This document shows, piece after piece, positions 9,191-60,707 of a DNA stretch of 64,000 nucleotides. Every line of letters starts with the position of its first letter. The stretch's first letter is position 1. A model generated the notes under the pieces. The model was not told where the DNA came from. It did no database searches and worked only from the letters and a program-made list of their open reading frames with translations. The DNA comes from Patagioenas fasciata. Taxonomy: Eukaryota > Chordata > Aves > Columbiformes > Columbidae. The stretch is from assembly GCF_037038585.1 (NCBI RefSeq), contig NC_092560.1, forward strand, positions 85,669,549 through 85,733,548, written 5' to 3'. A program made the translations under genes and the position numbers.

Positions 9191-9223
9191 CTGCCGTCTG
9201 GTGGCCACAGCCCGGAACTGCAG
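9191..9223 (-). promoter_or_regulatory. Two-part CTCF-like site 1
   Basis: On the minus strand TGCAGTTCC (upstream module form TGCAGTNCC) is followed by the core-like CCACCAGACGGCAG. The core matches CCASYAGRKGGCRS at all but one position. Best-matching site in the window. Confidence 0.6.
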
Positions 9224-9644
9224 CTGGGGAGCGGCGCCCGGTGCCCGTGCCGCGGGTAAGAGGGGGGCGCTGCCGCTGCGACCGAGGTCGTGCCCGTCAG
9301 AAAGGGGGGGGCAGCGGTCGGACGAGCCGCCGGGAAAAAAAGAGGCGCCCGGCTCTCCCGGGGCGGCCCCGCTGCGAGAGGAACGGGCGAGGCGGCAGCA
9401 GGAGGCGGCGGCGTCTCCTCAGTCCCGGGCACAGGGGAGAGAAACCTGCCGGCTGGAGCTCCTTACGGCTCTCTCTGTTCACAATGAATTTAAGGGTAGG
9501 TGACCACCCGCCCCGCTTGTCAGCGTAAAGCAAAGGAGCGCGGTTTGTTGTTTCCTTTCAAACGCGGCTGCTTGAAGCCGCGCGGGCAAAGGGCGTGGGG
9601 GGCCCGGCAGGGCGGAGAGCAGACGGGTGAGGGTGCAGAGCGGG

Positions 9645-10335
9645 CCAATCAGATGGCGCGGGAAGGCTGGGGGGGGGCGGATCGCTGATAGGCTACCAAG
9701 GTACGTCAATTGCCATTCTGTCCGCCAATCAGATTGCCGGAGGGGCGGGTGTCGGAGGCTCCGTACTGCGCATGAGCAAACTGCGAGTACTGATGGGCCA
9801 AGAGAATGATGATTGACTTGTCTTCGGCAGCCAATCGTGTTGCGGAAAGGGGCGGGTGCTGCTCTCTCCCTACTGCGCCTGCCCTCACTGCGAGCTCTGA
9901 TAGGCGGAGAAAATGGTGATTGACGTGCCTAGGCAGGCTATCATTTTGCCGGAGGGGCGGGCGTTGCGGGCCTCTGGGCGCCGGACGGAGCATCCAATAG
10001 GAGGACAGCGTGGTGGGGTGGAAAGCAGCCAATCAGCGCGGGTCCTGGCGAGCGGGTCCGTGGTGTCTCGGGGTGGGTACCGGGAATTAACGGGAACGGG
10101 GGTCGGGGCGGCTGCGGAGCGGTTGCTGCAACCGGCACCCGGGGACCTGGAGGCAGTCGGCTCAGGGCAGCCCTTCGTGAGGTCCCCGGAGGCGGCAGAA
10201 AGGAAGGAGACGACAGAAAGGCAGAGGGGGCCTCCGGCCGCGGAGGTCTCCGGGGCGCGGCAGGTGTCGGTGCCCGCGGAGCCCGGCGGGACGGTGGGAG
10301 AGTGCGAGGGGAACGGAGCGGCGAAAGAGGCGGCA
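9645..10335 (+). promoter_or_regulatory. Modular CCAAT/GC-box promoter with first-exon donor, D1
   Basis: Five CCAAT boxes (9645, 9725, 9831, 9994, 10029) alternate with GGGGCGGG boxes (9742, 9849, 9954). The stretch 9725-9937 is two ~107-bp modules in tandem, each running CCAAT, GC box, TACTGCGC(A/C)TG, CTGCGAG, TGATTGAC; partial modules lie on both sides. There is no TATA box, as is usual for CpG-island promoters. A strong donor (GGCAG then GTGAGT) at 10335/10336 makes a plus-strand transcript with a first exon ending there likely. The exon is open in one frame but unrecognised, so coding status is unknown. Confidence 0.65.
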
Positions 10336-10817
10336 GGTGAGTGCGGCCGCGGCGAGGGTGACCGTGCCGTTGGAACGGGGGGAGTGGGATGGGCCGGCGC
10401 GGTGAGGAGGCGTTCGGTTCAGTTTCCCTCCTGCCCTTACGGCCGAGTTGGCGAAGCCGGTGGGAGGTGTGTGACCCCGAGGGCAGGTGCGCCGAAGGCT
10501 TACGGTCTGGAGCCGTGTGTCCCTCCGGGACAGCAGTCGCTCCGGGAGCGGCGCAGCCCCCGTTAGTCGGGGGGAGACGTTTCAAACCAGAGCTAAGGCG
10601 CGGTGGCAGGCTCGGTGGCGTGGCGGGTCGGGCGCCGCTTCGGCGGGAGCTCGGGGCGAGGCCCGGCGGGTTCTGTGTCCTGTACGCGCGGCTTTCGTTC
10701 CGCGGCTCTCTGTGTGCGTTTTTGTTTCGTTGCGTTTGTTTTCTGGAGTTTATTTTGCGGGGTTCCAGCGAAACGCGGCACGACCGCTCGCCCGGGGCTG
10801 CCGCGGCGGTCTCAGTG

Positions 10818-10850
10818 CTGCCGCCCTGTGGCGAAACTCGGGTACTGCAG
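10818..10850 (-). promoter_or_regulatory. Two-part CTCF-like site 2
   Basis: Minus strand TGCAGTACC, nine-base spacer, then CCACAGGGCGGCAG. Spans 33 bp like site 1, with a weaker core. This sequence version recurs in D2 and in every array unit. Confidence 0.5.
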
Positions 10851-11127
10851 CGCACGGCCGGGGGAAGAGGCGCCGTTTGACCCGAAGCGGTCAGAAGTGC
10901 CAGAAACCAACGCCAGAACCGGCAGGAGCTGCGGCTTCGCAGTTCTGTCAGCATTGATCTTAGGACTCTGATTTTGATGCTAGTCGTTTTTACTTACATT
11001 ACGCTACAGTGTTCTGTTTGGTACCGCTAGTGGGTAGCAAATAATTGTGCTGTACCACAACGCGAGATGATAATATTTCGTAGATTTATACTGCCAAAGA
11101 GTTTGCAAGTATATTGAAAAGGGGGGA

Positions 11128-11602
11128 ATTCAAGAGAAGCTACCAAGTTAATGTATACTGCGATGAAGTTATAGGAGATGTACCCTTCATTAACCGGTTC
11201 ACGTGAGGTAAATGTTTTCTGACCGCCTGCACGATGAGGGGATGTTTTTCACCTTTTAGATCCTTCTGCATGACAAGAGGGAGACAGGAGATTTAATAAC
11301 ACATTGTTTAGAAGCTGAGAGCTTAGTTTATATTTAACTAATAGATGTGTTGTCAGTGAGAAACTAAACATTTATAACTAACTTCATCAATTATTTCTTA
11401 GGCTAGATATATTGTATGTTCAAAATTTAAAACAATTGTAATTTATGTGTAGCAGCTGTGTGACTATAAGCAATGCAAGAGCATCCAGTTGTGGGAGCAC
11501 TTACAGAGGACGACCTCCAGAGCTCCCCAGTGCAGATGAAAGGAACATTGCCTGCTTAACGGTGTAATTGACTCTGCTGTCAAGCTTATTTCTCCGTTTC
11601 AG
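11128..11602 (+). other. Segment shared with the array unit, ending in a splice acceptor
   Basis: Homologous to 4395-4731 of the unit (copies at about 39970-40444, 48656-48986 and 57231-57561), but with extra AT-rich DNA before the acceptor. The acceptor (TTTCTCCGTTTCAG, ending 11602) is kept in all copies, although the DNA after it differs: in the array it leads into the leader and gag-start piece. A splice role is plausible. Confidence 0.4.
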
Positions 11603-11892
11603 TACGAGCCCGTCCCGTGGCCTCACAGGGCTGTGTCCTGTGGCGGTGCTGTGGGGAAGGGGCGAGATGCTTTCCTGCACCGGTGGATGTGTTTGCTTTT
11701 ATGCTGAGCGTGTCCTAAACGGTGTCAGTTTGTCTTAATGCTGTCTGGCGTTGCTGCAGTTGCTCTGGTTTTTTGAGGATGCCTTGTGTTTTGGGGTGGC
11801 CCGTTTCCCTTGAATCCTCCGTTAGCTCAGCTGCTCTCCTGTCCCTTCTTCTGACTAATTCCTCTGCTTTCTCCTGCTCTATTTTTTTCAGA

Positions 11893-15759: not shown

Positions 15760-16330
15760 GAGCGTCGTGCCGGATATGCAAATCTCCTCGGGGCTCGGGC
15801 AGGGAGGTGAGTAGGCGGGGAGAATGCAAATTGAGATTCGAAGCCTGCAAATCAGATTGCGAGAGATAAGAGGAGGGGCGGGGCGCGTGGGAACGACAGG
15901 CGGGGCGAGGATGGGGCGGAGAAATGCAAATCAGAGGCGTGGCTACGCAAATAGGGCACTAGAGAGCTCGAACGGGCCGCCGGGAGGTTCCGCCGAGGAG
16001 GGTTCTCTGGGTGGGGTGGTTCTCTAGAGCGGATTTTCTGTTCCGCGTTGTCCCGGGTGGCTCGTTTGCTGTGGGTGATCCCGGGTGGTCACCTCGGTGC
16101 AGGTCACCCCCGCACACAAGCGCACGTTCAGCCCCGGTTCCGCGCATGCGCGGTGGCGCCCCGGTGCTCCCGCGGTGCACCGCCCGCCGGGTGTCGCTGG
16201 TGCTGCCGCCCGGTGGCCACAGCGCGGTACTGCAGCCCGGCGCGGGGAGTGCGGCATCGGGCTCAAACCAGAGCTCAAGCCCTGCGCTTGTGGGACGGCC
16301 TAGTAGAGCTGGGCTTCGGTTTGGAGGAGT
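15760..16330 (+). promoter_or_regulatory. Diverged promoter with three octamer motifs and NRF1 core
   Basis: Three exact ATGCAAAT octamers (near 15776, 15824 and 15924) and a near match (ACGCAAAT) lie in GC-rich DNA with GGGGCGGGG. A palindromic NRF1 core GCGCATGCGC is at 16142-16151, and a two-part CTCF-like site at 16203-16235. The words AAATCAGATTGCGAG and AAACCAGAGCT tie it to the D1 promoter, so it looks like an older single-copy relative. Octamers bind POU factors (Oct-1, Oct-2, Oct-4). The transcript is unknown. Confidence 0.5.
16203..16235 (-). promoter_or_regulatory. Two-part CTCF-like site 3
   Basis: Minus strand TGCAGTACC, nine-base spacer, then CCACCGGGCGGCAG, again 33 bp. It lies in the diverged promoter, so the geometry is older than the recent duplications. 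Confidence 0.55.
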
Positions 16331-41708: not shown

Positions 41709-41772
41709 GTGAGTCCCTGGCCCTCGGGGCCTCGTCCCCGGCTTGCGTGTCCTGGTGCCTCCCTGCCCCTCC

Positions 41773-43553: not shown

Positions 43554-43730
43554 CGCACGGCCGGGGGCAGAGGCGCTGTTCGCCCCGCAGGGCTCGCGGC
43601 CAGGTATCTGTGTGTCAGTGTCCGTCCCCATTTGTGTAAAAACGACATCCCTGCCTCGATGGCTCCTTAGAACGTTTAAAGATGTAAATATTTCTACCAC
43701 TAACATTGTCGATCCGGCTTCTTTCCTCAG

Positions 43731-43877
43731 TGGATCCGTTTTGCAGTCGGTGGCCCACGATTGCTTGGAAACAGCAGAAGCTGTTCGCTCCGGCGGAGCG
43801 GGTTGAAAGGACCAGCCGCTGGAGGATGCTGAAGACTCCTGGGTCGCTGATGGAAGCAGCTTTGCATAAAGCAAGGG
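43731..43877 (+). other. 147-bp exon candidate Y, array entry
   Basis: Acceptor GGCTTCTTTCCTCAG ends 43730, donor GGG/GTACGTG from 43878. One frame is open here across the exon (DPFCSRWPTIAWKQQKLF and on), but units 1 and 2 carry TGA in that frame, so it is not a conserved coding exon. Probably part of a non-coding transcript if spliced at all. Confidence 0.45.
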
Positions 43878-44735: not shown

Positions 44736-45576
44736 TCACTTAATCCCGTCATTGCAGGTCTCTTCTAGAGCCTCCATTGTCAAATCTTGCTGGTTATTCA
44801 CCCAATTTCCTTTCCTAACTGTCTTCCCTTTTCCCTTAGGGTTTTGAGAAGCTTGATCCTGGGGTGTCTGGGGGTTGCCAGCTGACAAAATGACATTGCT
44901 GTGGCCTTGCTGAGAACAGGTGTCCCTGTGAGCCACCTCCCGGGAGCAGAGCTGAAGTTGAAAGGCGGCCTGAAAGCCCCGGTGAGAGTTTTCGTTAAAG
45001 AAACCGGAGATGATGGGGTTGACGCTGCTATTGAAAAAGGCCAGCCGGTGAGCAAAGGGATAGATATAAATGTGAAAGAACTGCAACTGGACATCTGAAA
45101 GGTTGACATAGTCAGAAAGCATCATCAGAGTCCACAAGGGAAGCCAGGAGAGGGTGAAAAGCAAAACCACAATAATGAGCATTTTGATTACTCTTTGTTT
45201 CTTCTTTGACGTGCTGTGCCATCGCTCCTGGCTGTGCTTTCCCACCGTGGGCATCGCAGTGTTGAAGAGAGCAATGCTTATCCTGGCGTACATGATAACA
45301 GTGAGCGACAGGGGAGCCAGATAGATGTTCGCAAAGAGAACTGTTGTGTAGATCTTTCTCATTCCTGGGTCAGGCCGGTCCTCTCGGCGCCAGTATACGG
45401 GGCGGGTTTCGTTGCCGTAGCCGAGGATCACCCTGAAATGTTTCTCTTCTTGTACGTGCAGCATGACGGCAGAAGGACACGTGATTGCGATGGCCAGAAT
45501 CCAAGTGACGGCTATGATGATGACTGCAGTTGAAACGGTCAGCTTCTGCTCGAACGGATGAACGATGCAGCGAAAC
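44736..45576 (-). pseudogene. NPFFR2: NPFFR2-like last-exon fragment, unit 1
   Basis: Same exon and boundary as the copy at 481-1321, still open to the stop. This copy is the most changed. ECL2 reads YWRREDR, so the cysteine that normally bonds to the top of TM3 is gone, and a Cys replaces Arg after TM4 (ITCPSA). Like all copies it has NPIIS in TM7 and lacks exons for TM1-3. It differs from the detached 481 copy at about four residues. The shared TM7 lesion means inactivation came before the amplification. Confidence 0.87.
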
Positions 45577-47296
45577 CTGCAGCAAAGATATCCGGCGACG
45601 TACGTAGAGAAGCTGTTTAAGGAACGCTCACTCAAACAGGCAAGCATACGTTCGCTTCTTCAATTGCATGCTTTTTAAACAGATTAAACATGATACTCCA
45701 GTTGTTGGAAGCTGTGCTGTTGCTGGAAAAGTTACCATCGTGCGTTGCAAAGGGCCTCAGAAGGGAAACACTGATCAGGAAACTGGAAATAAGTTAGCAG
45801 ATGCCAGTGTGAAACCAGCCACCGAAAGGACAGAGACCGATACAAAAGCCGCATCTCTGATCCCAGGTGGCTGTCTCCTCCAGCCAACATCAGGAAACCG
45901 CAACAAAGAGGATAAGAAATTAATAGGAGATTTATAGCCGAATTAGAATTAGGGTCCAAAGAAGCTGTCACTGGTGACGGGAGAGCAGTGGTACCTCGCA
46001 GCGCAAGGAGCTGATGCGCTCTGTTACGATTAGGTGAAAAGGTAAGAGTGAATTTATAAACTGTTTGCGAAGGAGTGACCCAGCAATGTGAAATGTGTCT
46101 AGAAAACCATCATCTTAATACTGTATACAGGGTATAAATAAGAACAATTGGACGAGGGAAACGTCCCAGGACAACACTGGCAAATAGGGTTCTCCAAGCT
46201 GCCTAGAAAAGAGGGGTATGATTATTGGGTGGCACTCAGAGCAGCTCCCTTCTCAGGTTGGCCAGGAGCATTCCCGTGCCGGGGGGCGGCTGCCGGCCTG
46301 TGGGCCGGGGGCTGCGGCTGTTTGGGGCGCTGCCCCCGCTTTGTTTTCCTAGGGGAGCCCCCCCCTGCTTTTTGGGGGTTGTGGTACGTTCACGTGTAAA
46401 TGACGCAATGAGAGTAAATGACACAATGAGCTGCCTGTCGGGGCCGTTTCCCTCGTGTCGCGTGACGGTGTCACTTGTGGCGCCCCAGCGTGAGCAGGGG
46501 CCGGCGATGCGGGTGGGGGACGCGGGGGTCAAAAGGGAGTCCCCCTGAAAAGAGGGGGTCACAGTCCAAACGTGCCTGAGAATTCCCGGGGGAGGAGAAC
46601 ACGTGTTCGACCTGTAAACACGAGTGTGGGAATTGCAAACAGAGAAATCTGTCCTTGGTATTTATATATTGCAGGATGGCATTCACGTGTATATCAAATG
46701 CTTTTATATCAACGCCCTTTTCTACTCTATTATATAAAGGATTTTTAGAATGTAAAAAATTCCTGTTGATGGTTTTAAAAATACCAATATCTTGTCTATA
46801 TGTAAATCAAAAAAATGAAGGACTCGAAAATGAGGAAAAATATATAGAAAGCAATTTAAAATAGAGAAAAGTGTGAGTAGGTAGAGCTACCTGTAATGAC
46901 TGTGCGTTACATAATCTAAACGGATATTAAATATCATCTCTATGTATTCACTCATACCCGTGTACGTATTTTTTTAATAAGTGCAGATAGATATCTCCGT
47001 CTAAACCTATGTAATTGTAAATATGTCAAAATCTGTAGATCTGGAAAGATCCTGAAGCAATGCGGGGCTGTGGGCCCGACGTCCGCTTCCTGCGGCAGGC
47101 AAGAGAGCGAGCCCCTCTCTCCGGGTGGCGAAGGCTCCCTCTGCGCGGCGTGCGGCGGGCCGGGGGCCAACGTGCGCGGCAGGGTCCGTGCGCGTATCCT
47201 GGAGCGGGACGGCTGCCTGGCGAGCGAGCCAGCGAGGCTCCATGTCCCCGAAGCCTCGTCTCGTAGGAGCCCTGACACCCCACCGTGTTCTCCTAG

Positions 47297-47408
47297 GCTG
47301 AGGACGGCCGAGCGCCCCGAGTTACCGGAGAGGAAGGGAGGAGAGGAGGAGACGGGAGCGTCTGAGCTGTTAGAAGCCTCCTGGCAGCCACCGAAAGCGA
47401 GAGCCGCT
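47297..47408 (+). other. 112-bp exon candidate, unit 1
   Basis: Same boundaries as the copy at 3042. It lies 3' of the GC-rich block in the unit and ahead of a long pyrimidine tract. Unit 1 and unit 2 share the substitution giving EEETGAS in the open frame. Confidence 0.45.
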
Positions 47409-47943
47409 GTGAGTCCCTGGCCCTCGGGGCCTCGTCCCCGGCTTGTGTGTCCCGGTGCCCCCCTGCCCCTCCGTCTCCTTTTTCCCCACGCTTTCTCTGG
47501 CCCGTTCTTTTCCCTGCCATTAGTTTCCTCTCTGTGTCTGTATGTGCTGCTCTGTCTCTTTCCTTCCTCCCTCCCTTCGCCGTCTCTCTCTCTGTGCCTT
47601 TGTCGTGCTCGGCGTTGCCGGCTTTCTTCATTCCGTACGGCACTGTTCCCGTCCTCGTTCGCGTTCTGAGCCTTTGTGCTGCCCCCCGCCCCGTTTTTTT
47701 TCTCTCTTTTTATTTTCTTTTTTCCTGTCCTCCGTCTCTCCGCAGGGCTCCTCATTCCTCTCTTTCTTCCTCCAAGCCCCTGTGTTCCCCGCGGTCTCTC
47801 GCTCTGCCATCGTTTTTGCCTGTTGCCCTCTCTCTTGCTTCCCGTTGATAGGAGGAACAAAAATCTTGTAGAAAGCCCTTGGCATAAGGCAGCAAGACCA
47901 GGCCTAACAGAACAGAAACCTAACAGGGAAACACTAGCTCTGT

Positions 47944-48404
47944 AGGGACTGGAGGTGGGGCAAAGCGGGATGTCCTTGGCTCGCAGGCTGGGAAAAGGGA
48001 CGTTCCACTAAATGGAGAAGGAGCTACTTGAGTAGCAGCACCAAATGACAGCGGGCGTGCTCAAGACATGAGGTCGAGGAGCCGACACCGGGGCAGGGGG
48101 CACCGGGCTGCAGGGGCACCGGGGACCGCTGGAGACCCTTGATGGACACTGGCATACCAGAGATGGACTGCCAGCGAAGGGTGGGGTTATGGAAAGAACT
48201 TCTGTTTAATGCACTAACTAAGCGGTAGAAGCAAATGAATATGCAATAGGTGTATGTAAAGAATACCAAGAAGCGTGAATCACACGTACGCTCAAATACA
48301 GGGGCCATCCTCTGAGCGTGCGGTGCGCTGTATTGAAATTGCCCGCCGTTTAACACTTTCAGAACAGCGTTAGAGAGTCTTTTTTGCCGACTTTTTGGTA
48401 TCTC
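47944..48404 (+). mobile_element. Solo LTR-like fossil, unit 1
   Basis: Unit 1 counterpart of the LTR piece at 3690-4150, amplified with the unit and near-identical to it, so the duplication is much younger than the original insertion. Confidence 0.5.
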
Positions 48405-48986
48405 TCCGCGTCCCGTGGTTCCTCGCCGTGTCCCCGTGTCCCGCTCCCTGCCCGTGGTCGCGTTCCTCTCTGTCCCGTTGACCGTGCCGGGTTTTTGTCC
48501 TCCGTCTCCGCGCCGCTGCCGCCGCGCCGATTTGTTTCTTTCTGTGCCCTGTTCCTGGTGCTCTTCCGGCCTCTTTTCCTCTGTCCCCGCCGCTGCTTTG
48601 ATCTCTGCCTTGTTTTTTCAGAGCCCTGTCCCTTTTTTCTCTTCTCGCTTTTGAAGAGAAGCTGCCAAGTTAACGTATACTGCGATGAAGTTATAGAAGG
48701 TGTACCCGTCATTAACCAGTTGACATGAGGTAAATGCTTTCTGACCGCCTGCACGATGAGGGGATATTTTTCACCTTTTAGATCCTTCTGCACGACAAGA
48801 GGGAGATGGAAGATTAAGTAACACGTTGTTTAGAAGCTGAGAGCTTAGTTTATATTTGACTAATAATTAACAGATGTATTGTCAGCGAGAAACTAAACAA
48901 TTATAACTAACGTCGTCAAATGAAATAAAGAACGTGGCTCAGCAGTGCTGCTGACTCTGCCGTCCCGTTTCTTTCCCCGTTTCAGG

Positions 48987-49880
48987 CGGTGAGCCAGCCG
49001 GAGGACCCGCTCTGTCCGGCCGCAGGGCCCGTGGAGCCGAGGACTCTCTTGGCGCACCCCGGGGATGTCTCTGGAGAGACTCCTCGTCTCGGTCGGATCG
49101 CCGCGGGGACGGACGAGGACCTCTGGTGAGAAGTCTTTCTTCTCTGAAATTTGGGACCGGTCACGTGCTCGCGAACTGTCCGTAAGTCGTGGTACGGAAT
49201 TTCGGCAGGATAGCGTGGACGGGGTTGCGAGCACCTTAGAGGTATACAGTAGTTGCTGTGGAGTTGTTTGTGCGGCCAGCTTTTGGTGTTGGTTGTTCCC
49301 GTGCTCCGTTGTGGTGCAAAGCTGGCTCTGTATGTAGCTGTGAAGAGTACCGTAGTTCGGTTTAATTCTTGGATGTGCCTTGGTTCTGACTATGCACTTG
49401 AACACCGAAAACTACAGCAGGAGCTGCTGTGGCTTTAACTTGCGAGGAGTGTGAGCGTTGTGGAGCCATCTGTGTTGCAGAGTGTCCTAATTGCGGTGCT
49501 GAGTGTTAGAGAGATTTGAGCTGGGTACCGGAATTGTTTTGTTTTGGAGACGGTGGGATAAACTTGGAGTACAACTTGTGAGGGCGGTGTGTCGTGGGTA
49601 GGTTTGAGTATTATCTGTGGAGTACTGCTGTAGGTGTTAATAGTTATTTGCTCGTATTTGTTACAAGATGAGCCGTGTCGTTCCGTGTGACGCGTAATGG
49701 GAGGACGGCGTAGTAGCGGTATTCTGAAAAAGAGCCTGTTAGGGTGTATTTTAGCTCAGAGGAAAGAGATTGAGGAACCACCTGGTGATAATGTGAATAG
49801 AGCAACCTTGATGAAATCTTGTGAGCAGAGGCCATTGTATAAATTGGACAAGGAAGGAAAGGCTGTGCGCAAAGCGCGGT
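48987..49880 (+). mobile_element. Retroviral leader and gag start fossil, unit 1
   Basis: The longer form of the leader followed by the gag matrix-like start at 49697. It ends where GC-rich, CTCF-site-bearing DNA begins. Broken remnant, amplified as part of the unit. Confidence 0.55.
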
Positions 49881-49925
49881 GCTGCACCCGGGCGCCCCAA
49901 TGCCGTGCCGCAGCGCGCCTCAGTG

Positions 49926-49958
49926 CTGCCGCCCTGTGGCGAAACTCGGGTACTGCAG
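49926..49958 (-). promoter_or_regulatory. Two-part CTCF-like site 7 (unit 1, promoter side)
   Basis: Same version as site 2, about 300 bp before the CCAAT promoter of unit 1. Confidence 0.5.
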
Positions 49959-50256
49959 CGCACGGCCGGGGGCAGAGGCGCTGTTCGCCCCGCAGGGCTC
50001 GCAGCCAGGTATCTGTGTGTCAGTGCCCGTCCCCATTTGTGTAAAAACGACATCCCTCCCTCGGTGGCTCCTTAGAACGTTTAAAGATGTAAATATTGCT
50101 ACCACTAACATTGTCGATCCGGCTTCTTTCCTCAGTGTAAAGCAAAGGAGCGCGGTTTGTTGTTTCCTTTTAAAGGCGGCTGTTGGAAGCCGCGCGGGCA
50201 AAGGGCGTGGGGGTCCCGGCAGGGTGGCGAGAAGGCGAGTGAGGATGCAGAGCGGG

Positions 50257-50600
50257 CCAATCAGATCGCTCGGGAGGGCTGGAGGGGCGGAGCGCTGATA
50301 GGCGGGGAGAATGGCAATTGATGTGCGCAGGCAGCCAATCAGATTGCCAGAGGGGCGGGCGTTGAGGCCTCAGTATTGCGCATGCCCAAATTGCGCAGTC
50401 CTCAGTCAGGTCCGACCCTGAGGCGGGCACCTGGGCGCGGAGCGCGGGAAGGAGCATCCAATAGGAGGACGGCGCGCTGGGGTGAAAAGCAGCCAATCAG
50501 AGCGCACCGACTCAATCCCGTTTGAACAGCTGCCTCCCTGGCAAGCGCGTCCGTGGTGTCTCGGGGCGGGCACCGGGAGTTAAGGGGGAAACGGGGGTCG
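50257..50600 (+). promoter_or_regulatory. CCAAT/GC-box CpG-island promoter, array unit 1
   Basis: Related to the D1/D2 promoter but shorter. CCAAT boxes lie at 50257, 50335, 50458 and 50493, with one GGGGCGGG after the second and a degenerate NRF1-like TGCGCATGCCCA near 50377. It lacks the second ~107-bp module and the GTGAGT first-exon donor of D1. It lies between a two-part CTCF-like site and a poly(T)/poly(A) hairpin. A plus-strand start is plausible given the exon candidates downstream. Confidence 0.6.
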
Positions 50601-50890
50601 AGGCGAGGGAGGGGAGGCTGAGGAGCGCTCATTTTGGCCTCTCCTTCCCCTTGCCCTGCCTCTCCGTCCCTTTTGCCTCTCTCTCCCTCTCTCTGTGTCA
50701 CCTTGTCTTGCTCCCTGTCCCTATCTGTCTCTGACAAGCTGACCTGCTCCTTGCCCTCCTTTTGTATGGAATCACAGGCTCATTCTGCTTGGAGAAGACA
50801 TGTGCAATTTTCTAATGACTTGACGGTTTAGAGAAACGGCCTGGAAGAGATCATTCCTTTGTCTTTTTTTTGTGTGTGTTTTTTGTGTGT

Positions 50891-50940
50891 TTTTTTTTTT
50901 TTTTCCCCACGTGGAGGGAAAAAAAAAAAAAAAAAAAAAA
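50891..50940. repeat. Poly(T)/poly(A) hairpin with E-box loop, unit 1
   Basis: T14, CCCC, ACGTGG, AGGG, then A22: the T run and CCC can pair with GGG and the A run, leaving CACGTG in the loop. It lies six bases before the position where the array-entry copy has its duplication breakpoint. Confidence 0.8.
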
Positions 50941-51321
50941 CAGAAGAGGCAAATTCAGTGCCTCTGCGGAGAAGCTGGCGACCAGTTTTAGTTAAGAACG
51001 CACACCCCGTTGGCGAACGGGTCCCGCGGCAGTTCCACGTGTTGCAGGTAAAAGAAGGAAGTTTGATCTGCCATAGAGGAACAGCCGCCTCTTTCCCTCC
51101 TTAGGGTCGAGCGTTGCCCTTGTCTTTGTTCACATGAATTTATGGGCACGCTGGAAATAGCCTTTAAGATTTATATGTAGAGTTTAATCTAAGTGGTAAG
51201 TGGCATGGGCATAGTTAATTTTTGAACACCTTGCTGCCAGTTGAAATGTAAGGGATGAAATGTGATGGGAAGTAATAAGTAAATTTGGGGTTGACTTCTA
51301 GGGTGTTTTTTTCCCCATTAG

Positions 51322-51397
51322 TGTAAATCAATGGCACCGTTGTCCTGTGGCTCAATCTCCGTTCTGTTCCGTGGAGTCTTCAATTTAGGATGTTCAG
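51322..51397 (+). other. 76-bp exon candidate X, unit 1
   Basis: Same acceptor and GTAAGA donor as the copy at 42747. It lies about 400 bp after the poly(T)/poly(A) hairpin and downstream of the unit's CpG-island promoter, so it could be an exon of a transcript started there. Confidence 0.5.
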
Positions 51398-52095
51398 GTA
51401 AGAAAGTTTGTCCTTCCAAAGAATGACCAGCCATTGGTAGGACAGAGAGAGGCTTTTAAGTGCATGATCAGAATTTAAGCCAAATTCCACTTGACGTTGC
51501 TGCTGTTGGTTTTGGCTTTCACTGGTTTCCCCACAGCTCCCTAGTGTTTGGGAGCTCGGAGTGGGCATTTTTTTCCCCCAGGGAGAGGCTATGCTTAAGA
51601 ATGAATTTGTTTCCTTAGAGGAGTGAGAGTCCGTTTGTGTAACACAAAGAAAAACCCCAGCCTAGTCGAGTTCTGAGTGTGTGTCTGTGAGATGGCTGCT
51701 TTACTTTGATGAGTTCACACCTGTGCAGTTGTAATGCCAAAGAGCAATGCAAGATAGGAGGGTTTTTTCCGCTGTGGGGGGGGATGCATAAAACCAGAGC
51801 TAAGGTGCGGTTGCAGGCTTGGTGGTGTGGCGAGTGGGGCGCCGCTTCGGTGGGAGCTCGGGGTGAGGCCCAGCGGGTTCTGTGTCCTGTACGCGTGGCT
51901 TTCGTGCCGCGGCTCTCTGTGTGCGTTTTTGTTTTGTTGTGTTTGTTTTTTGTGTTTTTTTCTGCGGGATTCCCGCGAAACGCGGCACAACCGCTCGGCC
52001 CGGGCTGCCGCGGCGGTCTCAGTGCTGCCGTCCTGTGGGCAAAGCGCGGTGCTGCACCCGGGCGCCCCAATGCCGTGCCGCAGCGCGCCTCAGTG

Positions 52096-52128
52096 CTGCC
52101 GCCCTGTGGCGAAACTCGGGTACTGCAG
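52096..52128 (-). promoter_or_regulatory. Two-part CTCF-like site 8 (unit 1, distal)
   Basis: Same version as site 2, with the degenerate sister at 52025-52057. Unit 1 thus has two full sites about 2.2 kb apart on either side of the promoter and hairpin. Confidence 0.5.
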
Positions 52129-52305
52129 CGCACGGCCGGGGGCAGAGGCGCTGTTCGCCCCGCAGGGCTCGCGGCCAGGTATCTGTGTGTCAGTGTCCGT
52201 CCCCGTTTGTGTAAAAACGACATCCCTGCCTCGATGGCTCCTTAGAACGTTTAAAGATGTAAATATTTCTACCACTAACATTGTCGATCCGACTTCTTTC
52301 CTCAG

Positions 52306-52452
52306 TGGATCCGTTTTGCAGTCGGTGACCCACGATTGCTTGGAAACAGCAGAAGCTGTTCGCTCCGGCGGAGCGGATTGAAAGGACCAGCCGCTGGAGG
52401 ATGCTGAAGACTCCTGGGTCGCTGATGGAAGCAGCTTTGCATAAAGCAAGGG
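52306..52452 (+). other. 147-bp exon candidate Y, unit 1
   Basis: Both splice sites kept; the frame open in the array-entry copy has a stop (CGG TGA) here. Confidence 0.45.
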
Positions 52453-53308
52453 GTACGTGAACCTGGGCATGCAGTGACGACTGCCCAGCAGGTAATGGAA
52501 GCTAAACCTTTACCTCCAACGCCCGACAAAAATAACGCCAAGAAATGCCACTGAAAAAAACACAGTCAGGGAGGGGTTTTTTTAAATTTCCTTTAGTTCC
52601 CCCCCCTCTGCCCCGCCCTGCTGCGTTTAGTGCAGTGAATGACCCATTGGGAGATGACTGTGGATCTGGCTGTTGAAGGGTGTCTGAAGGAGAGGGAGAT
52701 GTGTGTAGAGCAGGATTGGTTGTGGGGGTGAGTGTAACTGGTTTGGATGTGGGGTTGTAAATTCTTTTTGGAGGCTTCCTAGTTTCTGGTGTCACCTGTG
52801 GGGTGAAGCGTCTTTCTGTGTGCAGGTTTGAAAGGTGCGACGTACGGAGCTCCATCATTTGCCACCAGAACTCCAAATCACAGAGACAACGTTGCTGTGC
52901 AGCTGCTAAGGACAGTGTGTGTCTCAGGTAGAGTAACGTCCTTTGTGCTCTGTGTGCGTGTTCCTCCCTTGAAACGAAGGTGCGCTGCCCGGAGTTTCAC
53001 GTTCCGTGTGGTACCTGCTGGGCTGAGTCTCCTCCCTACGCTCGCCCGTTTTAGCCACGTCTCTGCTCCAGCCCAGTTCGGGAGCAGAGTGGGTCATCAC
53101 TGACTGCAGGGCGGTTGCACCTTCTTCAAGCTGCTAACACAGGAGGATGAATTTGGCTTTCTGCTCACATCACACATTCAGATACTGGGCAAGCTGTGTA
53201 TCTCCTTCAAAAAAGAAACACTGTCAAGGGGCTGACAGAGCGTGAGTTTCACAACACAACAAACCAACTCTGCTAGGCTTACATCGTTTTGGTGGTGCAT
53301 AGCATGTT

Positions 53309-54149
53309 TCACTTAATCCCGTCATTGCAGGTCTCTTCTAGAGCCTCCATTGTCAAATCTTGCTGGTTACTCACCCAATTTCCTTTCCTAACTGTCTTCC
53401 CTTTTTCCTTAGCGTTTTGAGAAGCTTGATCCTGGGGTGTCTGGGGGTTGCCAGCTGACAAAATGACATTGCTGTGGCCTTGCTGAGAACAGGTGTCCCT
53501 GTGAGCCACCTCCCGGGAGCAGAGCTGAAGTTGAAAGGCGGCCTGAAAGCCCCGGTGAGAGTTTTCGTTAAAGAAACCGGAGATGATGGGGTTGACGCTG
53601 CTATTGAAAAAGGCCAGCCGGTGAGCAAAGGGATAGATATAAATGTGAAAGAACTGCAACTGGACATCTGAAAGGTTGACATAGTCAGAAAGCATCATCA
53701 GAGTCCACAAGGGAAGCCAGGAGAGGGTGAAAAGCAAACCCACAATAATGAGCATTTTGATTACTCTTTGTTTCTTCTTTGACGTGCTGTGCCATCGCTC
53801 CTGGCTGTGCTTTCCCACCGTGGGCATCGCAGTGTTGAAGAGAGCAATGCTTATCCTGGCGTACATGATAACAGTGAGCGACAGGGGAGCCAGATAGATG
53901 TTCGCAAAGAGAACTGTTGTGTAGATCTTTCTCATTCCTGGGTCAGGCCAGTCCTCTCGGCACCAGTATACGGGGCGGGTTTCGTTGCCGTAGCCGAGGA
54001 TCACCCTGAAATGTTTCTCTTCTTGTACGTGCAGCATGACGGCAGAAGGACGCGTGATTGCGATGGCCAGAATCCAAGTGACGGCTATGATGATGACTGC
54101 AGTTGAAACGGTCAGCTTCTGCTCGAACGGATGAACGATGCAGCGAAAC
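53309..54149 (-). pseudogene. NPFFR2: NPFFR2-like last-exon fragment, unit 2
   Basis: Same exon as in the other units, open to the stop, with ECL2 cysteine retained (YWCREDW) and NPIIS in TM7. Private to this copy is a Val-to-Gly change in TM6 (LIIVGLLF). With unit 3 it shares AKEKGK and WVSNQQ in the C-tail, where the other copies have KGKGK and WVNNQQ. Only the TM4-to-tail half of the receptor is encoded, and no partner exons are seen in the 8.6-kb unit. Confidence 0.87.
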
Positions 54150-55870
54150 CTGCAGCAAAGATATCCGGCGACATACGTAGAGAAGCTGATTAAGGAACGC
54201 TCACTCAAACAGGCAAGCATACGTTCACTTCTTCAATTGCATGCTTTTGAAACAGATTAAACATGATACTCCAGTTGTTGGAAGCTGTGCTGTTGCTGGA
54301 AAAGTTACCATCGTGCGTTGCAAAGGGCCTCAGAAGGGAAACACTGATCAGGAAACTGGAAATAAGTTAGCAGATGCCAGTGTGAAACCAGCCACCGAAA
54401 GGACAGAGACCGATACAAAAGCCACACCTCTGATCCCAGGTGGCTGTCTCCTCCAGCCAACATCAGGAAACCGCAACAAAGAGGATAAGAAATTAATAGG
54501 AGATTTATAGCCGAATTAGAATTAGGGTCCAAAGAAGCTGTCACTGGTGACGGGAGAGCAGTGGTACCTCGCAGCGCAAGGAGCTGATGCGCTCTATTAA
54601 GATTAGGTGAAAAGGTAAGAGTGAATTTATAAACTGTTTGCGAAGGAGTGACCCAGCAATGTGAAATGTGTCTAGAAAACCATCATCTTAATACTGTATA
54701 CAGGGTATAAATAAGAACAATTGGACGAGGGAAACGTCCCAGGACAACACTGGCAAATAGGGTTCTCCAAGCTGCCTAGAAAAGAGGGGTATGGCTATTG
54801 GGTGGCACTCACAGCAGCTCCCTTCTCAGGTTGGCCAGGAGCATTGCCGTGCCGGGGGGCGGCTGCCGGCCTGTGGGCCGGGGGCTGCGGCTGTTTGGGG
54901 CGCTGCCCCCGCTTTGTTTTCCTAGGGGAGCCCCCCCCCGCTTTTTGGGGGTTGTGGTACGTGCACGTGTAAATGACACAATGAGAGTAAATGACACAAT
55001 GAGCTGCCTGTCGGGGCCGTTTCCCTCGTGTCGCGTGACGGTGTCGCTTGTGGCGCCCCAGCGTGAGCAGGGGCCGGCGATGCGGGTGGGGGACGCGGGG
55101 GTCAAAAGGGAGTCCCCCTGAAAAGAGGGGGTCACAGTCCAAACGTGCCTGAAAATTCCCGGGGGAGGAGAACACGTGTTCGACCTGTAAACACGAGTGT
55201 GGCAATTGCAAACAGAGAAATCTGTCCTTGGTATTTATATATTGCAGGATGGCATTCACGTGTATATCAAATGCTTTTATATCAACCCCCTTTTCTACTC
55301 TATTATATAAAGGATTTTTAGAATGTAAAAAATTCCTGTTGATGGTTTTAAAAATACCAATATCTTGTCTATACGTAAATTAAAAAATGAAGGACTCGAA
55401 AATGAGAAAAAAATTATATAGAAAGCAATTTAAAATAGAGAAAAGTTAGAGTGGGTAGAGCTACCTGTAATGACTGTGCGTTACATAATCTAAACGGATA
55501 TTAAATATCATCTCTATGTATTCACTCATACCCGTGTACGTATTTTTTTAATAAGTGCAAATAGATATCTCCGTCTAAACCTGTGTAATTGTAAATATGT
55601 CAAAATCTGTAGATCTGGAAGGATCCTGAAGCAATGCGGGGCTGTGGGCCCGACGTCCGCTTCCTGCGGCAGGCGAGAGAGCGAGCCCCTCTCTCCGGGT
55701 GGCGAAGGCTCCCTCTGCGCGGCGTGCGGCGGGCCGGGGGCCAACGTGCGCGGCAGGGTCCGTGCGCGTATCCTGGAGCGGGACGGCTGCCTGGCGAGCG
55801 AGCCAGCGAGGCTCCATGTCCCCGAAGCCTCGTCTCGTAGGAGCCCTGACACCCCACCGTGTTCTCCTAG

Positions 55871-55982
55871 GCTGAGGACGGCCGAGCGCCCCGAGTTACC
55901 GGAGAGGAAGGGAGGAGAGGAGGAGACGGGAGCGTCTGAGCTGTTAGAAGCCTCCTGGCAGCCACCGAAAGCGAGAGCCGCT
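55871..55982 (+). other. 112-bp exon candidate, unit 2
   Basis: Identical in layout to the unit 1 copy; acceptor and GTGAGT donor are kept. Confidence 0.45.
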
Positions 55983-56517
55983 GTGAGTCCCTGGCCCTCG
56001 GGGCCTCGTCCCCGGCTTGTGTGTCCTGGTGCCTCCCTGCCCCTCCGTCTCCTTTTTCCCCACGCTTTCTCTGGCCCGTTCTTTTCCCTGCCATTAGTTT
56101 CCTCTCTGTGTCTGTATGTGCTGCTCTGTCTCCTTCCTTCCTCCCTCCCTTCGCCGTCTCTCTCTCTGTGCCTTTGTCGTGCTCGGCGTTGCCGGCTTTC
56201 TTCATTCCGTACGGCACTGTTCCCGTCCTCGTTCACGTTCTGAGCCTTTGTGCTGCCCCCCGCCCCGTTTTTTTTCTCTCTTTTTATTTTCTTTTTTCCT
56301 GTCCTCCGTCTCTCCGCGGGGCTCCTCATTCCTCTCTTTCTTCCTCCAAGCCCCTGTGTTCCCCGCGGTCTCTCGCTCTGCCATCGTTTTTGCCTGTTGC
56401 CCTCTCTCTTGCTTCCCGTTGATAGGAGGAACAAAAATCTTTTAGAAAGCCCTTGGCATAAGGCAGCAAGACCAGGCCTAACGGAACAGAAACCTAACAG
56501 AGAAACACTAGCTCTGT

Positions 56518-56979
56518 AGGGACTGGAGGTGGGGCAAAGCGGGATGTCCTTGGCTCGCAGGCTGGGAAAACGGGACGTTCCACTAAATGGAGAAGGAGCT
56601 ACTTGAGTAGCAGCACAAAATGACAGCGGGCGTGCTCAAGACATGAGGTCGAGGAGCCGACACCGGGGCAGGGGGCACCGGGCTGCAGGGGCACCGGGGA
56701 CCCCTGGAGACCCTTGATGGACACTGGCATACCAGAGATGGACTGCCAGCGAAGGGTGGGGTTATGGAAAGAACTTCTGTTTAATGCACTAACTAAGCGG
56801 TAGAAGCAAATGAATATGCAATAGGTGTATGTAGAGAATACCAAGAAGCGTGAATCACACGTACGCTCAAATACAGGGGCCATCCTCTGAGCGTGCGGTG
56901 CGCTGTATTGAAATTGCCCGCCGTTTAACACTTTCAGAACAGCGTTAGAGAGTCTTTTTTGCCGACTTTTTGGTATCTC
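56518..56979 (+). mobile_element. Solo LTR-like fossil, unit 2
   Basis: Unit 2 counterpart of the LTR piece in unit 1, passively copied with the macrosatellite. Confidence 0.5.
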
Positions 56980-57561
56980 TCCGCGTCCCGTGGTTCCTCG
57001 CCGTGTCCCCGTGTCCCGCTCCCTGCCCGTGGTCGCGTTCCTCTCTGTCCCGTTGACCGTGCCGGGTTTTTGTCCTCCGTCTCCGCGCCGCTGCCGCCGC
57101 GCCGATTTGTTTCTTTCTGTGCCCTGTTCCTGGTGCTCTTCCGGCCTCTTTTCCTCTGTCCCCGCCGCTGCTTTGATCTCTGCCTTGTTTTTTCAGAGCC
57201 CTGTCCCTTTTTTCTCTTCTCGCTTTTGAAGAGAAGCTGCCAAGTTAACGTATACTGCGATGAAGTTATAGAAGGTGTACCCGTCATTAACCAGTTGACA
57301 TGAGGTAAATGCTTTCTGACCGCCTGCACGATGAGGGGATATTTTTCACCTTTTAGATCCTTCTGCACGACAAGAGGGAGATGGAAGATTAAGTAACACG
57401 TTGTTTAGAAGCTGAGAGCTTAGTTTATATTTGACTAATAATTAACAGATGTATTGTCAGCGAGAAACTAAACAATTATAACTAACATCGTCAAATGAAA
57501 TAAAGAACGTGGCTCAGCAGTGCTGCTGACTCTGCCGTCCCGTTTCTTTCCCCGTTTCAGG

Positions 57562-58455
57562 CGGTGAGCCAGCCGGAGGACCCGCTCTGTCCGGCCGCAG
57601 GGCCCGTGGAGCCGAGGACTCTCTTGGCGCACCCCGGGGATGTCTCTGGAGAGACTCCTCGTCTCGGTCGGATCGCCGCGGGGACGGACGAGGACCTCTG
57701 GTGAGAAGTCTTTCTTCTCTGAAATTTGGGACCGGTCACGTGCTCGCGAACTGTCCGTAAGTCGTGGTACGGAATTTCGGCAGGATAGCGTGGACGGGGT
57801 TGCGAGCACCTTAGAGGTATACAGTAGTTGCTGTGGAGTTGTTTGTGCGGCCAGCTTTTGGTGTTGGTTGTTCCCGTGCTCCGTTGTGGTGCAAAGCTGG
57901 CTCTGTATGTAGCTGTGAAGAGTACCGTAGTTCGGTTTAATTCTTGGATGTGCCTTGGTTCTGACTATGCACTTGAACACCGAAAACTACAGCAGGAGCT
58001 GCTGTGGCTTTAACTTGCGAGGAGTGTGAGCGTTGTGGAGCCATCTGTGTTGCAGAGTGTCCTAATTGCGGTGCTGAGTGTTAGAGAGATTTGAGCTGGG
58101 TACCGGAATTGTTTTGTTTTGGAGACGGTGGGATAAACTTGGAGTACAACTTGTGAGGGCGGTGTGTCGTGGGTAGGTTTGAGTATTATCTGTGGAGTAC
58201 TGCTGTAGGTGTTAATAGTTATTTGCTCGTATTTGTTACAAGATGAGCCGTGTCGTTCCGTGTGACGCGTAATGGGAGGACGGCGTAGTAGCGGTATTCT
58301 GAAAAAGAGCCTGTTAGGGTGTATTTTAGCTCAGAGGAAAGAGATTGAGGAACCACCTGGTGATAATGTGAATAGAGCAACCTTGATGAAATCTTGTGAG
58401 CAGAGGCCATTGTATAAATTGGACAAGGAAGGAAAGGCTGTGCGCAAAGCGCGGT
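57562..58455 (+). mobile_element. Retroviral leader and gag start fossil, unit 2
   Basis: Counterpart of the unit 1 remnant with the gag-like start at 58272, essentially identical in sequence. Confidence 0.55.
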
Positions 58456-58500
58456 GCTGCACCCGGGCGCCCCAATGCCGTGCCGCAGCGCGCCTCAGTG

Positions 58501-58533
58501 CTGCCGCCCTGTGGCGAAACTCGGGTACTGCAG
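58501..58533 (-). promoter_or_regulatory. Two-part CTCF-like site 9 (unit 2, promoter side)
   Basis: Unit 2 counterpart of the site at 49926. Confidence 0.5.
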
Positions 58534-58831
58534 CGCACGGCCGGGGGCAGAGGCGCTGTTCGCCCCGCAGGGCTCGCAGCCAGGTATCTGTGTGTCAGTG
58601 CCCGTCCCCATTTGTGTAAAAACGACATCCCTCCCTCGGTGGCTCCTTAGAACGTTTAAAGATGTAAATATTGCTACCACTAACATTGTCGATCCGGCTT
58701 CTTTCCTCAGTGTAAAGCAAAGGAGCGCGGTTTGTTGTTTCCTTTTAAAGGCGGCTGTTGGAAGCCGCGCGGGCAAAGGGCGTGGGGGTCCCGGCAGGGT
58801 GGCGAGAAGGCGAGTGAGGATGCAGAGCGGG

Positions 58832-59175
58832 CCAATCAGATCGCTCGGGAGGGCTGGAGGGGCGGAGCGCTGATAGGCGGGGAGAATGGCAATTGATGTG
58901 CGCAGGCAGCCAATCAGATTGCCAGAGGGGCGGGCGTTGAGGCCTCAGTATTGCGCATGCCCAAATTGCGCAGTCCTCAGTCAGGTCCGACCCTGAGGCG
59001 GGCACCTGGGCGCGGAGCGCGGGAAGGAGCATCCAATAGGAGGACGGCGCGCTGGGGTGAAAAGCAGCCAATCAGAGCGCACCGACTCAATCCCGTTTGA
59101 ACAGCTGCCTCCCTGGCAAGCGCGTCCGTGGTGTCTCGGGGCGGGCACCGGGAGTTAAGGGGGAAACGGGGGTCG
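58832..59175 (+). promoter_or_regulatory. CCAAT/GC-box CpG-island promoter, array unit 2
   Basis: Counterpart of the unit 1 promoter (CCAAT at 58832, 58910, 59033, 59068), with no difference that alters a listed motif. Confidence 0.6.
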
Positions 59176-59464
59176 AGGCGAGGGAGGGGAGGCTGAGGAG
59201 CGCTCATTTTGGCCTCTCCTTCCCCTTGCCCTGCCTCTCCGTCCCTTTTGCCTCTCTCTCCCTCTCTCTGTGTCACCTTGTCTTGCTCCCTGTCCCTATC
59301 TGTCTCTGACAAGCTGACCTGCTCCTTGCCCTCCTTTTGTATGGAATCACAGGCTCATTCTGCTTGGAGAAGACATGTGCAATTTTCTAATGACTTGACG
59401 GTTTAGAGAAACGGCCTGGAAGAGATCATTCCTTTGTCTTTTTTTTGTGTGTGTTTTTTGTGTG

Positions 59465-59519
59465 TTTTTTTTTTTTTTTTTCCCCACGTGGAGGAAAAAA
59501 AAAAAAAAAAAAAAAAAAA
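59465..59519. repeat. Poly(T)/poly(A) hairpin with E-box loop, unit 2
   Basis: T17 and A25 versions of the same hairpin. Differences in run length from unit 1 explain most of the 6-bp unit-length difference. Confidence 0.8.
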
Positions 59520-59900
59520 CAGAAGAGGCAAATTCAGTGCCTCTGCGGAGAAGCTGGCGACCAGTTTTAGTTAAGAACGCACACCCCGTTGGCGAACGGG
59601 TCCCGCGGCAGTTCCACGTGTTGCAGGTAAAAGAAGGAAGTTTGATCTGCCATAGAGGAACAGCCGCCTCTTTCCCTCCTTAGGGTCGAGCGTTGCCCTT
59701 GTCTTTGTTCACATGAATTTATGGGCACGCTGGAAATAGCCTTTAAGATTTATATGTAGAGTTTAATCTAAGTGGTAAGTGGCATGGGCATAGTTAATTT
59801 TTGAACACCTTGCTGCCAGTTGAAATGTAAGGGATGAAATGTGATGGGAAGTAATAAGTAAATTTGGGGTTGACTTCTAGGGTGTTTTTTTCCCCATTAG

Positions 59901-59976
59901 TGTAAATCAATGGCACCGTTGTCCTGTGGCTCAATCTCCGTTCTGTTCCGTGGAGTCTTCAATTTAGGATGTTCAG
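59901..59976 (+). other. 76-bp exon candidate X, unit 2
   Basis: Identical in layout to the unit 1 copy. Confidence 0.5.
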
Positions 59977-60674
59977 GTAAGAAAGTTTGTCCTTCCAAAG
60001 AATGACCAGCCATTGGTAGGACAGAGAGAGGCTTTTAAGTGCATGATCAGAATTTAAGCCAAATTCCACTTGACGTTGCTGCTGTTGGTTTTGGCTTTCA
60101 CTGGTTTCCCCACAGCTCCCTAGTGTTTGGGAGCTCGGAGTGGGCATTTTTTTCCCCCAGGGAGAGGCTATGCTTAAGAATGAATTTGTTTCCTTAGAGG
60201 AGTGAGAGTCCGTTTGTGTAACACAAAGAAAAACCCCAGCCTAGTCGAGTTCTGAGTGTGTGTCTGTGAGATGGCTGCTTTACTTTGATGAGTTCACACC
60301 TGTGCAGTTGTAATGCCAAAGAGCAATGCAAGATAGGAGGGTTTTTTCCGCTGTGGGGGGGGATGCATAAAACCAGAGCTAAGGTGCGGTTGCAGGCTTG
60401 GTGGTGTGGCGAGTGGGGCGCCGCTTCGGTGGGAGCTCGGGGTGAGGCCCAGCGGGTTCTGTGTCCTGTACGCGTGGCTTTCGTGCCGCGGCTCTCTGTG
60501 TGCGTTTTTGTTTTGTTGTGTTTGTTTTTTGTGTTTTTTTCTGCGGGATTCCCGCGAAACGCGGCACAACCGCTCGGCCCGGGCTGCCGCGGCGGTCTCA
60601 GTGCTGCCGTCCTGTGGGCAAAGCGCGGTGCTGCACCCGGGCGCCCCAATGCCGTGCCGCAGCGCGCCTCAGTG

Positions 60675-60707
60675 CTGCCGCCCTGTGGCGAAACTCGGGT
60701 ACTGCAG
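60675..60707 (-). promoter_or_regulatory. Two-part CTCF-like site 10 (unit 2, distal)
   Basis: Unit 2 counterpart of the site at 52096, with the degenerate sister at 60604-60636. Confidence 0.5.

Follow-up and report, generated by a model that had tools for sequence, protein, structure and literature searches.

Two-part sites in a duplicated locus

Why does one stretch of pigeon DNA carry so many sites resembling those of the genome-folding protein CTCF, all pointing the same way, and were they placed and kept for binding or simply copied together? We addressed this in a 64,000-nucleotide window of the Patagioenas fasciata genome (contig NC_092560.1), in which an earlier note had listed ten 33-bp sites on the minus strand, each with TGCAGT(A/T)CC, nine further bases and a CCAC..GGCAG core. 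The coordinates, strand and sequence of all ten are as described, and the pattern TGCAGT[AT]CC, when sought on both strands of the window, occurs at exactly these ten sites and never on the plus strand. Three further sites had been missed, here termed B1, in which the upstream module is TGCAGCACC and matches at 7/8 positions. The window therefore holds at least 13 intact two-part sites (the ten listed plus three B1), and all 13 lie on the minus strand (Table 1).

Table 1. Candidate CTCF-type sites and associated features in the 64,000-nucleotide window
Feature	Positions	Strand	Details
Broken B1	5165..5189	-	core truncated after its first bases; upstream module and spacer present
Two-part CTCF-type site, 9191 type	9191..9223	-	18.6 bits, p=4e-7; IUPAC core 14/14
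P block, CpG-island promoter-like, CCAAT and GC boxes	9520..10110	+	copies near 38366-38950, 50132-50605, 58707-59180
Q block, ends in 10818 site or B1	10569..10849	-	copies 39411-39691, 43216-43481, 51776-52056, 60355-60635
Two-part CTCF-type site, B2 type	10818..10850	-	11.2 bits
Two-part CTCF-type site, 16203 type	16203..16235	-	14.7 bits; one in window
Segmental copy of 5192-12930	34038..41772	+	98.7% identity
Two-part CTCF-type site, 9191 copy	38038..38070	-	sequence identity, duplication
Two-part CTCF-type site, 10818 copy (B2)	39660..39692	-	sequence identity, duplication
Head-to-tail array, 8.58-kb unit	42371..64000	+	units start 42371, 50946, 59525; 99.4% identity at offset 8575
Two-part CTCF-type site, B1 type	43450..43482	-	upstream module 7/8, core 8.7 bits; 71 bp from 43521
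Two-part CTCF-type site, B2 type	43521..43553	-	71 bp from B1 at 43450
NPFFR2 last-exon copy	44736..45578	-	others near 484-1323, 53312-54151, 61891-62730
Broken B1	49863..49887	-	sequence match
Two-part CTCF-type site, B2 type	49926..49958	-	adjoins broken B1 and promoter-like block
Two-part CTCF-type site, B1 type	52025..52057	-	upstream module and core match; 71 bp from 52096
Two-part CTCF-type site, B2 type	52096..52128	-	sequence match
Broken B1	58438..58462	-	sequence match
Two-part CTCF-type site, B2 type	58501..58533	-	sequence match
Two-part CTCF-type site, B1 type	60604..60636	-	upstream module and core match; 71 bp from 60675
Two-part CTCF-type site, B2 type	60675..60707	-	sequence match

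The ten listed sites comprise only three distinct 33-mers (2, 7 and 1 copies), one shared by 9191 and 38038, one by the seven B2 sites, and the third found at 16203 alone. All but 16203 lie within direct duplications of 97-99% identity, and the number and orientation of the sites are consequently not independent evidence; the shared orientation is real, but it reflects a single lineage copied head to tail rather than ten placements, and both number and orientation are largely a product of copying. The array is represented by two full units, each with three intact sites (B1, B2 and B2), and a third with B1 and B2 that is cut by the window end; a unit remnant at 1-5193 retains a broken B1 only. 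The 8.6-kb unit has 52% GC, and the sites sit within CpG islands, with a CpG observed/expected ratio of 0.91-1.05 in eight site blocks versus 0.63 across the remaining 56.5 kb. The window also contains four copies of the NPFFR2 last exon, with Columba livia as the nearest named relative. Contig counts suggesting multicopy NPFFR2 in other birds were dropped, since counts need not equal copies; the contigs are of 'lgn' source, presumably pooled read assemblies.

Copying on this scale, together with the three B1 copies that are already broken, speaks for an account in which the sites have true CTCF ancestry and little present function, most copies being weakened passengers of segmentally duplicated CpG islands; the likeness between types would then stem from gene conversion over short tracts or from a recent history in common.

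CTCF geometry and motif scores

Each site consists of an upstream module, a gap and a 19-bp core, and the gap is 6 bp at 13/13 sites; the upstream module matches at 8/8 positions in ten sites and at 7/8 in three. In published work, the commonest gap between upstream module and core in CTCF sites is 5 bp, and 6 bp is frequent (PMC9004084); the two-part geometry claimed in the earlier note thus agrees with published spacing. A GAG lies 2 bp beyond the core at 12/13 sites, and the same paper places a motif for finger 1, whose firmest element is GAG, 2 bp past its own core, although the register is approximate because that core is trimmed. Extended vertebrate CTCF sites (JASPAR MA1929.1 and MA1930.1; PMC11472169) likewise have a TGCAGT-type module, a 6-bp gap, the same order and a length of ~33 bp.

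The cores are weaker than the earlier note implied. They were scored with an approximate version of JASPAR MA0139.1, a mammalian matrix applied here to a bird, and under this matrix the core-only p-values at 52% GC are 4e-7 for the 9191 type, 5e-6 for 16203, 3.5e-5 for 10818 (B2) and 1.1e-4 for B1, the last failing the usual 1e-4 cut-off; at 66% GC they are 2.5-3.4 times weaker. Unlike the extended vertebrate sites, and again by this approximate matrix, 11/13 sites have G for the nearly invariant A at position 9, and 13/13 have C at position 12, at a cost of 4.1 bits. These departures fit passively copied, weakened sites. The C, which CTCF rarely has at this position and which all four types share, also favours a 36-43 bp element bound by another factor, such as another zinc-finger protein, or a short dispersed repeat resembling the CTCF motif, and ZBTB3 was once proposed by others for the upstream part, a proposal rejected in PMC11472169. 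We regard such an element as improbable, because the two modules, the gap and the GAG all agree with published CTCF features, and because most pairs of types have no shared stretch far past the site, unlike a longer transposable element.

Could GC-rich DNA yield such matches by chance? Core matches alone leave some room for this, with 21 in the window versus 10.1 in simulation at >=10 bits, 4 versus 3.9 at >=12 bits and 4 versus 1.2 at >=14 bits; others occur elsewhere and on the plus strand too, the highest (14.5 bits, at 31059 on the plus strand) without an upstream module. In contrast, joint matches (upstream 8/8 plus core >=4 bits) number 10 in the window, from three distinct sequences and all with a 6-bp gap, versus 0 in 30 simulated windows (first-order Markov, 1-kb blocks), with gaps of 5-7 bp scored in the simulations and 4-10 bp in the real window. 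The matrix scoring suggested earlier bears out the joint signal but not the core alone, which is unenriched at >=12 bits, and we give chance almost no weight.

Other identities were sought within the window. RE1/NRSF, suspected from TTCAGCACC-like halves, gave 0 matches, as did the ZNF143 site and two simple patterns for YY1; there are no tRNA genes, and no Rfam family reached its gathering score. A coding reading of two site-overlapping ORFs (8716-9462 and 43040-43666) found nothing in Pfam at E<=0.01.

Similarity between site types

If the sites had been kept for binding, the modules should outlast the spacers, as the earlier note proposed, and comparison of the four types is in line with this. 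The spacer varies most, in 7/9 columns versus 4/25 module columns (Fisher p=0.0017, for a small set of four types with columns treated as independent), and similarity between 40-bp flanks is mostly at the level of shuffled sequence. Three of 12 flank comparisons are lowish, matched by 22, 38 and 45 of 500 shuffles, and there may be weak homology of flanks between types. For all type pairs except B2/B1, local alignments span the site but extend no more than about 31 bases past it (37-65 columns, scores 33-57); when segments of the window were paired at random 1500 times, the top score was 38 and two pairs reached 33, and the 9191/10818 and 9191/49926 alignments, each scoring 33, are unexceptional taken singly. 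Among the changes between types are a T/A difference at the upstream module's free base and a core substitution of one purine for another.

The 10818 type and B1, which are homologous by position, have eight differences inside the site, more than the ~10% in the adjoining stretch, an excess that makes sense only with 10818 as a recombinant of B2 and B1. The 10818 type does resemble a recombinant of two sites, as passive copying with conversion would allow; however, similarity between types is mostly confined to the footprint, differences concentrate in the spacer, and conversion tracts would have to stop near the site edges in several pairs. We consider passive carriage unlikely, if far from negligible. 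Near-identical copies have 0 mismatches in their 33-mers and 0-6 per 400 flanking bases, and are uninformative about selection since the flanks also have few mismatches. A CTCF-type stretch outlasting its surroundings was seen between diverged copies within this window only; that the putative docking stretch is what old copies still share hints that it has been kept for a purpose.

A proposed origin and action

We lean towards the reading that an old CTCF-type site was duplicated together with the CpG-island module around it and retained by selection, giving a directional bank of CTCF. All sites would descend from one ancestral CTCF-type site, seated in a CpG-island module adjoining the CCAAT/GC-box promoter-like block; common descent of all four types is presumed here, with old duplication giving rise to the types and recent tandem and segmental duplication expanding them to at least thirteen sites. 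At each, the upstream module would contact zinc fingers 9-11 and the core fingers 3-7, with the 6-bp gap between. That it is mainly the site footprint which is still alike between most type pairs suggests that purifying selection has acted to preserve binding by CTCF, or by its germline paralogue CTCFL. By the direction rule for CTCF sites in PMC12885311, the finger-3/N-terminal side of these minus-strand sites would face lower coordinates. The predicted bank would then stop cohesin loops arriving from lower coordinates, or insulate enhancers lying there.

Comparison with known CTCF-bearing arrays

Among the best-studied CTCF-bearing tandem arrays are those of the mammalian X (DXZ4, FIRRE and ICCE). 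Whether such arrays persist for reasons beyond X inactivation has been called an open question (PMC6985041), and an avian array sharing their signature would offer a test of it in a lineage that lacks X inactivation. Among the literature matches listed, none is described as reporting such an array in a bird, which is weak evidence of novelty, and none links this locus to a bird sex chromosome. It is possible, though doubtful, that the array is a pigeon-lineage macrosatellite derived from an NPFFR2-containing segment and acts as a one-directional CTCF/cohesin stop bank, a bird counterpart of DXZ4, with selection on both the footprint and array size.

The human tDNA VNTR at 1q23.3 is likewise made of tandem units with CTCF, close in size to those here (7.3 kb), and endogenous-retrovirus sequence lies near both arrays; between human and mouse, its conservation is limited to the tRNA genes and a CTCF site of 24 bp (PMC4041453). 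CTCF binding is demonstrated there and predicted from sequence here, and the pigeon unit differs in lacking tRNA genes and in GC (52% versus 64%). The array is not classed as DXZ4 itself, as the paired YY1-type site has no counterpart by the two simple patterns; it also differs from that mammalian X array in belonging to a bird and in its 8.6-kb unit, 52% GC, NPFFR2 exon and three intact sites per full unit. It resembles DXZ4 and Dxz4 (PMC3491370, PMC5899087, PMC6985041) in having multi-kb head-to-tail units with CTCF-type sites of one polarity, and in apparent constraint focused on a stretch of roughly 34 bp: mammalian DXZ4 keeps a 34-bp stretch with a CTCF match inside (PMC3491370), and a comparable focus is read here from the sequence.

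Two-part CTCF-like sites and their match to CTCF

All ten 33-bp sites proposed in the earlier note (upstream module, spacer and core) are present in the sequence on the minus strand, and they form three distinct 33-mers, as it had said: the 9191 type (identical at 38038), the 16203 type, and the 10818 type (B2), with seven identical copies. The set is larger, however, as a matrix scan adds three two-part sites of a further type, B1, each 71 bp from a B2 site, which brings the intact set to 13 sites in four types, every one on the minus strand. The strict upstream module, TGCAGT[AT]CC, has ten matches in the window, every one within the ten original sites and none on the plus strand. Three broken B1 copies stop short within the core: they retain its first bases, together with the spacer and upstream module, and have lost the rest.

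Cores were scored with a 19-bp CTCF matrix, against 30 first-order Markov simulations of the window built in 1-kb blocks. Such scoring, which the earlier note had proposed, sets the two-part match well apart from chance, with ten joint matches (upstream module 8/8, core at least 4 bits) in the window and none in the 30 simulations. Cores alone give 21 matches versus 10.1 expected at 10 bits or more, 4 versus 3.9 at 12, 4 versus 1.2 at 14, and 2 versus 0.2 at 16, so the evidential strength resides in the combination. With this matrix, core p values at 52% GC are 4e-7 (9191), 5e-6 (16203), 3.5e-5 (B2) and 1.1e-4 (B1); a C at position 12 costs 4.1 bits in all four types, and a penalized G for A at position 9 occurs in the 16203, B2 and B1 types (11 of 13 sites). 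Next after the 9191 and 16203 cores is a core-only match lacking the upstream module at 31059 (plus strand, 14.5 bits), which sits within a minisatellite.

Features of the window
Feature	Position	Strand	Detail
B1 site	43450	minus	intact
B1 site	52025	minus	intact
B1 site	60604	minus	intact
Broken B1	5165-5189	minus
Broken B1	49863-49887	minus
Broken B1	58438-58462	minus
NPFFR2 last-exon copy	481-1404	minus	stop-to-stop frame
NPFFR2 last-exon copy	44736-45659	minus	stop-to-stop frame
NPFFR2 last-exon copy	53309-54232	minus	stop-to-stop frame
NPFFR2 last-exon copy	61888-62811	minus	stop-to-stop frame
Integrase fragment	5814-6239	plus	Integrase_Zn (Pfam)
Integrase fragment	34629-35087	plus	duplicate of 5814-6239
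Minisatellite	28210-31870		units ~56/112 bp
Direct repeat	24422-25440		~1 kb
Direct repeat	33051-34044		~1 kb

Duplication and probable constraint

Self-comparison revealed a head-to-tail array of an 8.58-kb unit that starts at 42371 and runs through the end of the window (99.4% identity), a remnant of that unit at 1-5193, and a 7.7-kb duplication (5192-12930 = 34038-41772, 98.7%). The shared orientation, which the earlier note had stressed for its ten sites, is thus real but, like site number, is accounted for by direct duplication for all except 16203, and only the older relation between types remains. At 5193, 43458/49863 and 10849-10850, two edges of duplications and an inferred point of recombination lie inside or no more than 4 bp from a CTCF-type site or remnant; the sites look as if they were recombination points, a pattern seen post hoc and without formal test.

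Apart from B2/B1, local alignments between types cover the site and at most ~31 bases beyond: 38/43 for 9191/16203, 37/44 for 16203/B1, 35/45 for 9191/B1, 35/46 for 9191/49926, 30/37 each for 10818/16203 and 16203/49926, and, the longest, 46/65 for 9191/10818. These alignments score 33-57. Against a background of 1500 randomly paired segments from elsewhere in the window, where the maximum was 38 and two pairs reached 33 but none 39, the scores of 33 for 9191/10818 and 9191/49926 are unexceptional singly. In most of 12 comparisons the 40-base flanks resemble each other no more than shuffled sequence does, and the best three are equalled by 22, 38 and 45 of 500 shuffles. Across the four types, variable columns number 7/9 in the spacer, 1/8 in the upstream module and 3/17 in the core (Fisher p=0.0017), a count that omits the module's free base and the preceding base, both also variable. 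The two-part sites are probably under constraint. Common descent, as opposed to convergence, is favored by the rare C that the types have in common at core position 12 and by the spacer that 9191, 16203 and B1 share. One complication is that 10818 and B1, positional homologues over 266 bp, differ at eight site bases and by ~10% alongside; we read 10818 as a recombinant, its upstream side from B2 and its downstream side from B1. The earlier CTCF interpretation stands in part: the sites are CTCF-type by sequence, with constraint probable, but they represent a single copied lineage with mostly imperfect cores.

CpG-island blocks and neighboring sequences

The sites lie within CpG islands: o/e is 0.91-1.05 across eight site blocks and 0.63 across the other 56.5 kb. 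Two recurring blocks contain or adjoin the sites. Block Q, which spans 10569-10849 and has four further copies (87-89% between groups), ends at the 10818 site or B1, with B2 71 bp past its end in array units. The promoter-like block P (9520-10110 and copies; best stretch 82% between groups) has GC boxes and 12 of the 15 NF-Y-type matches in the window (8.0 expected for the window as a whole), those 12 all plus-strand and copies of a few. Part of P (9686-9974) is internally repetitive (106-bp step, 73%), with short inverted matches and CCAAT and GC boxes.

The 8.6-kb unit has a B2-stretch copy of 275 bp (49863-50137) that adjoins P (from 50132), placing its B2 site 173 bp ahead of P; in other copies the 9191-type site lies 295-296 bp ahead, with the same polarity. 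A weak P-like trace ahead of 16203 (15797-15865, 78% over 69 bp, E 3e-7) suggests that this region may represent the P-associated module in eroded form. An NRF1-type palindrome, GCGCATGCGC, occurs at 16142 and 38618 in CpG islands near sites (four strand-matches versus 0.2 expected).

Each of the four last-exon copies of the neuropeptide FF receptor 2 gene (NPFFR2) has an open frame of 307 codons preceded by the splice-acceptor-like TTTGCTGCAG. Searches with one copy apiece matched Pfam 7tm_1, NPFFR2 among solved structures (E 6e-108) and, as best named match, Columba livia NPFFR2 (88% identity over 91%); tblastn matched all four at 85-86%, and with five sauropsid NPFFR2 proteins (E<=1) found no earlier NPFFR2 exons in the window. 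In a 47-row tree the copies group first with two other sequences (100/100) and next with Columba (98/90), and their branches are longer than that of the pigeon gene. The window is bird DNA, and its source is probably a pigeon or dove.

Elsewhere, a retroviral integrase zinc-binding fragment is duplicated, by position and translation, and the long, diverged minisatellite, with several open plus-strand frames, is flanked by direct repeats (93% identical) in an LTR-like layout.

Proposed mechanism

In CTCF, the core is described as bound by fingers 3-7 and the upstream motif by fingers 9-11, with an upstream-to-core gap most commonly of 5 bp and frequently 6 bp; a motif containing GAG, 2 bp past that paper's own trimmed core, is a possible finger 1 target (PMC9004084). 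Here GAG lies 2 bp past the 19-bp core in all sites but 16203 (12/13), although the register relative to the trimmed core is approximate. An IL3 insulator without the upstream motif is reported to bind threefold less and to lose enhancer blocking (PMC12885311), and in alpha-globin work which that paper cites, insulation was greater when the finger-3 side faced the enhancer; by that rule, the minus-strand sites face lower coordinates. The candidate sites would be bound by CTCF and are predicted to stop cohesin or enhancers on the lower-coordinate side. Putative CTCF sites that a human motif picks out in duck show enrichment at domain boundaries (PMC7787181), which makes a mammalian matrix reasonable in birds.

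Comparison with CTCF-bearing macrosatellites

Judged on sequence, the sites and array show the pattern of CTCF-bearing macrosatellites. For the human tDNA VNTR unit, conservation with mouse is described as limited to the tRNA genes and one CTCF site of 24 bp (PMC4041453), and in DXZ4, bases invariant across 25 mammals fall in a 34-bp stretch whose bases 3-21 match CTCF (PMC3491370). Unlike DXZ4, the present array is in bird DNA with a 52% GC unit, and two patterns found no YY1-type site in the window, which together rule out identity as DXZ4. Dxz4 sites share one polarity, and inversion moves contacts to the opposite side (PMC5899087); if it works, the array described here would act like DXZ4.
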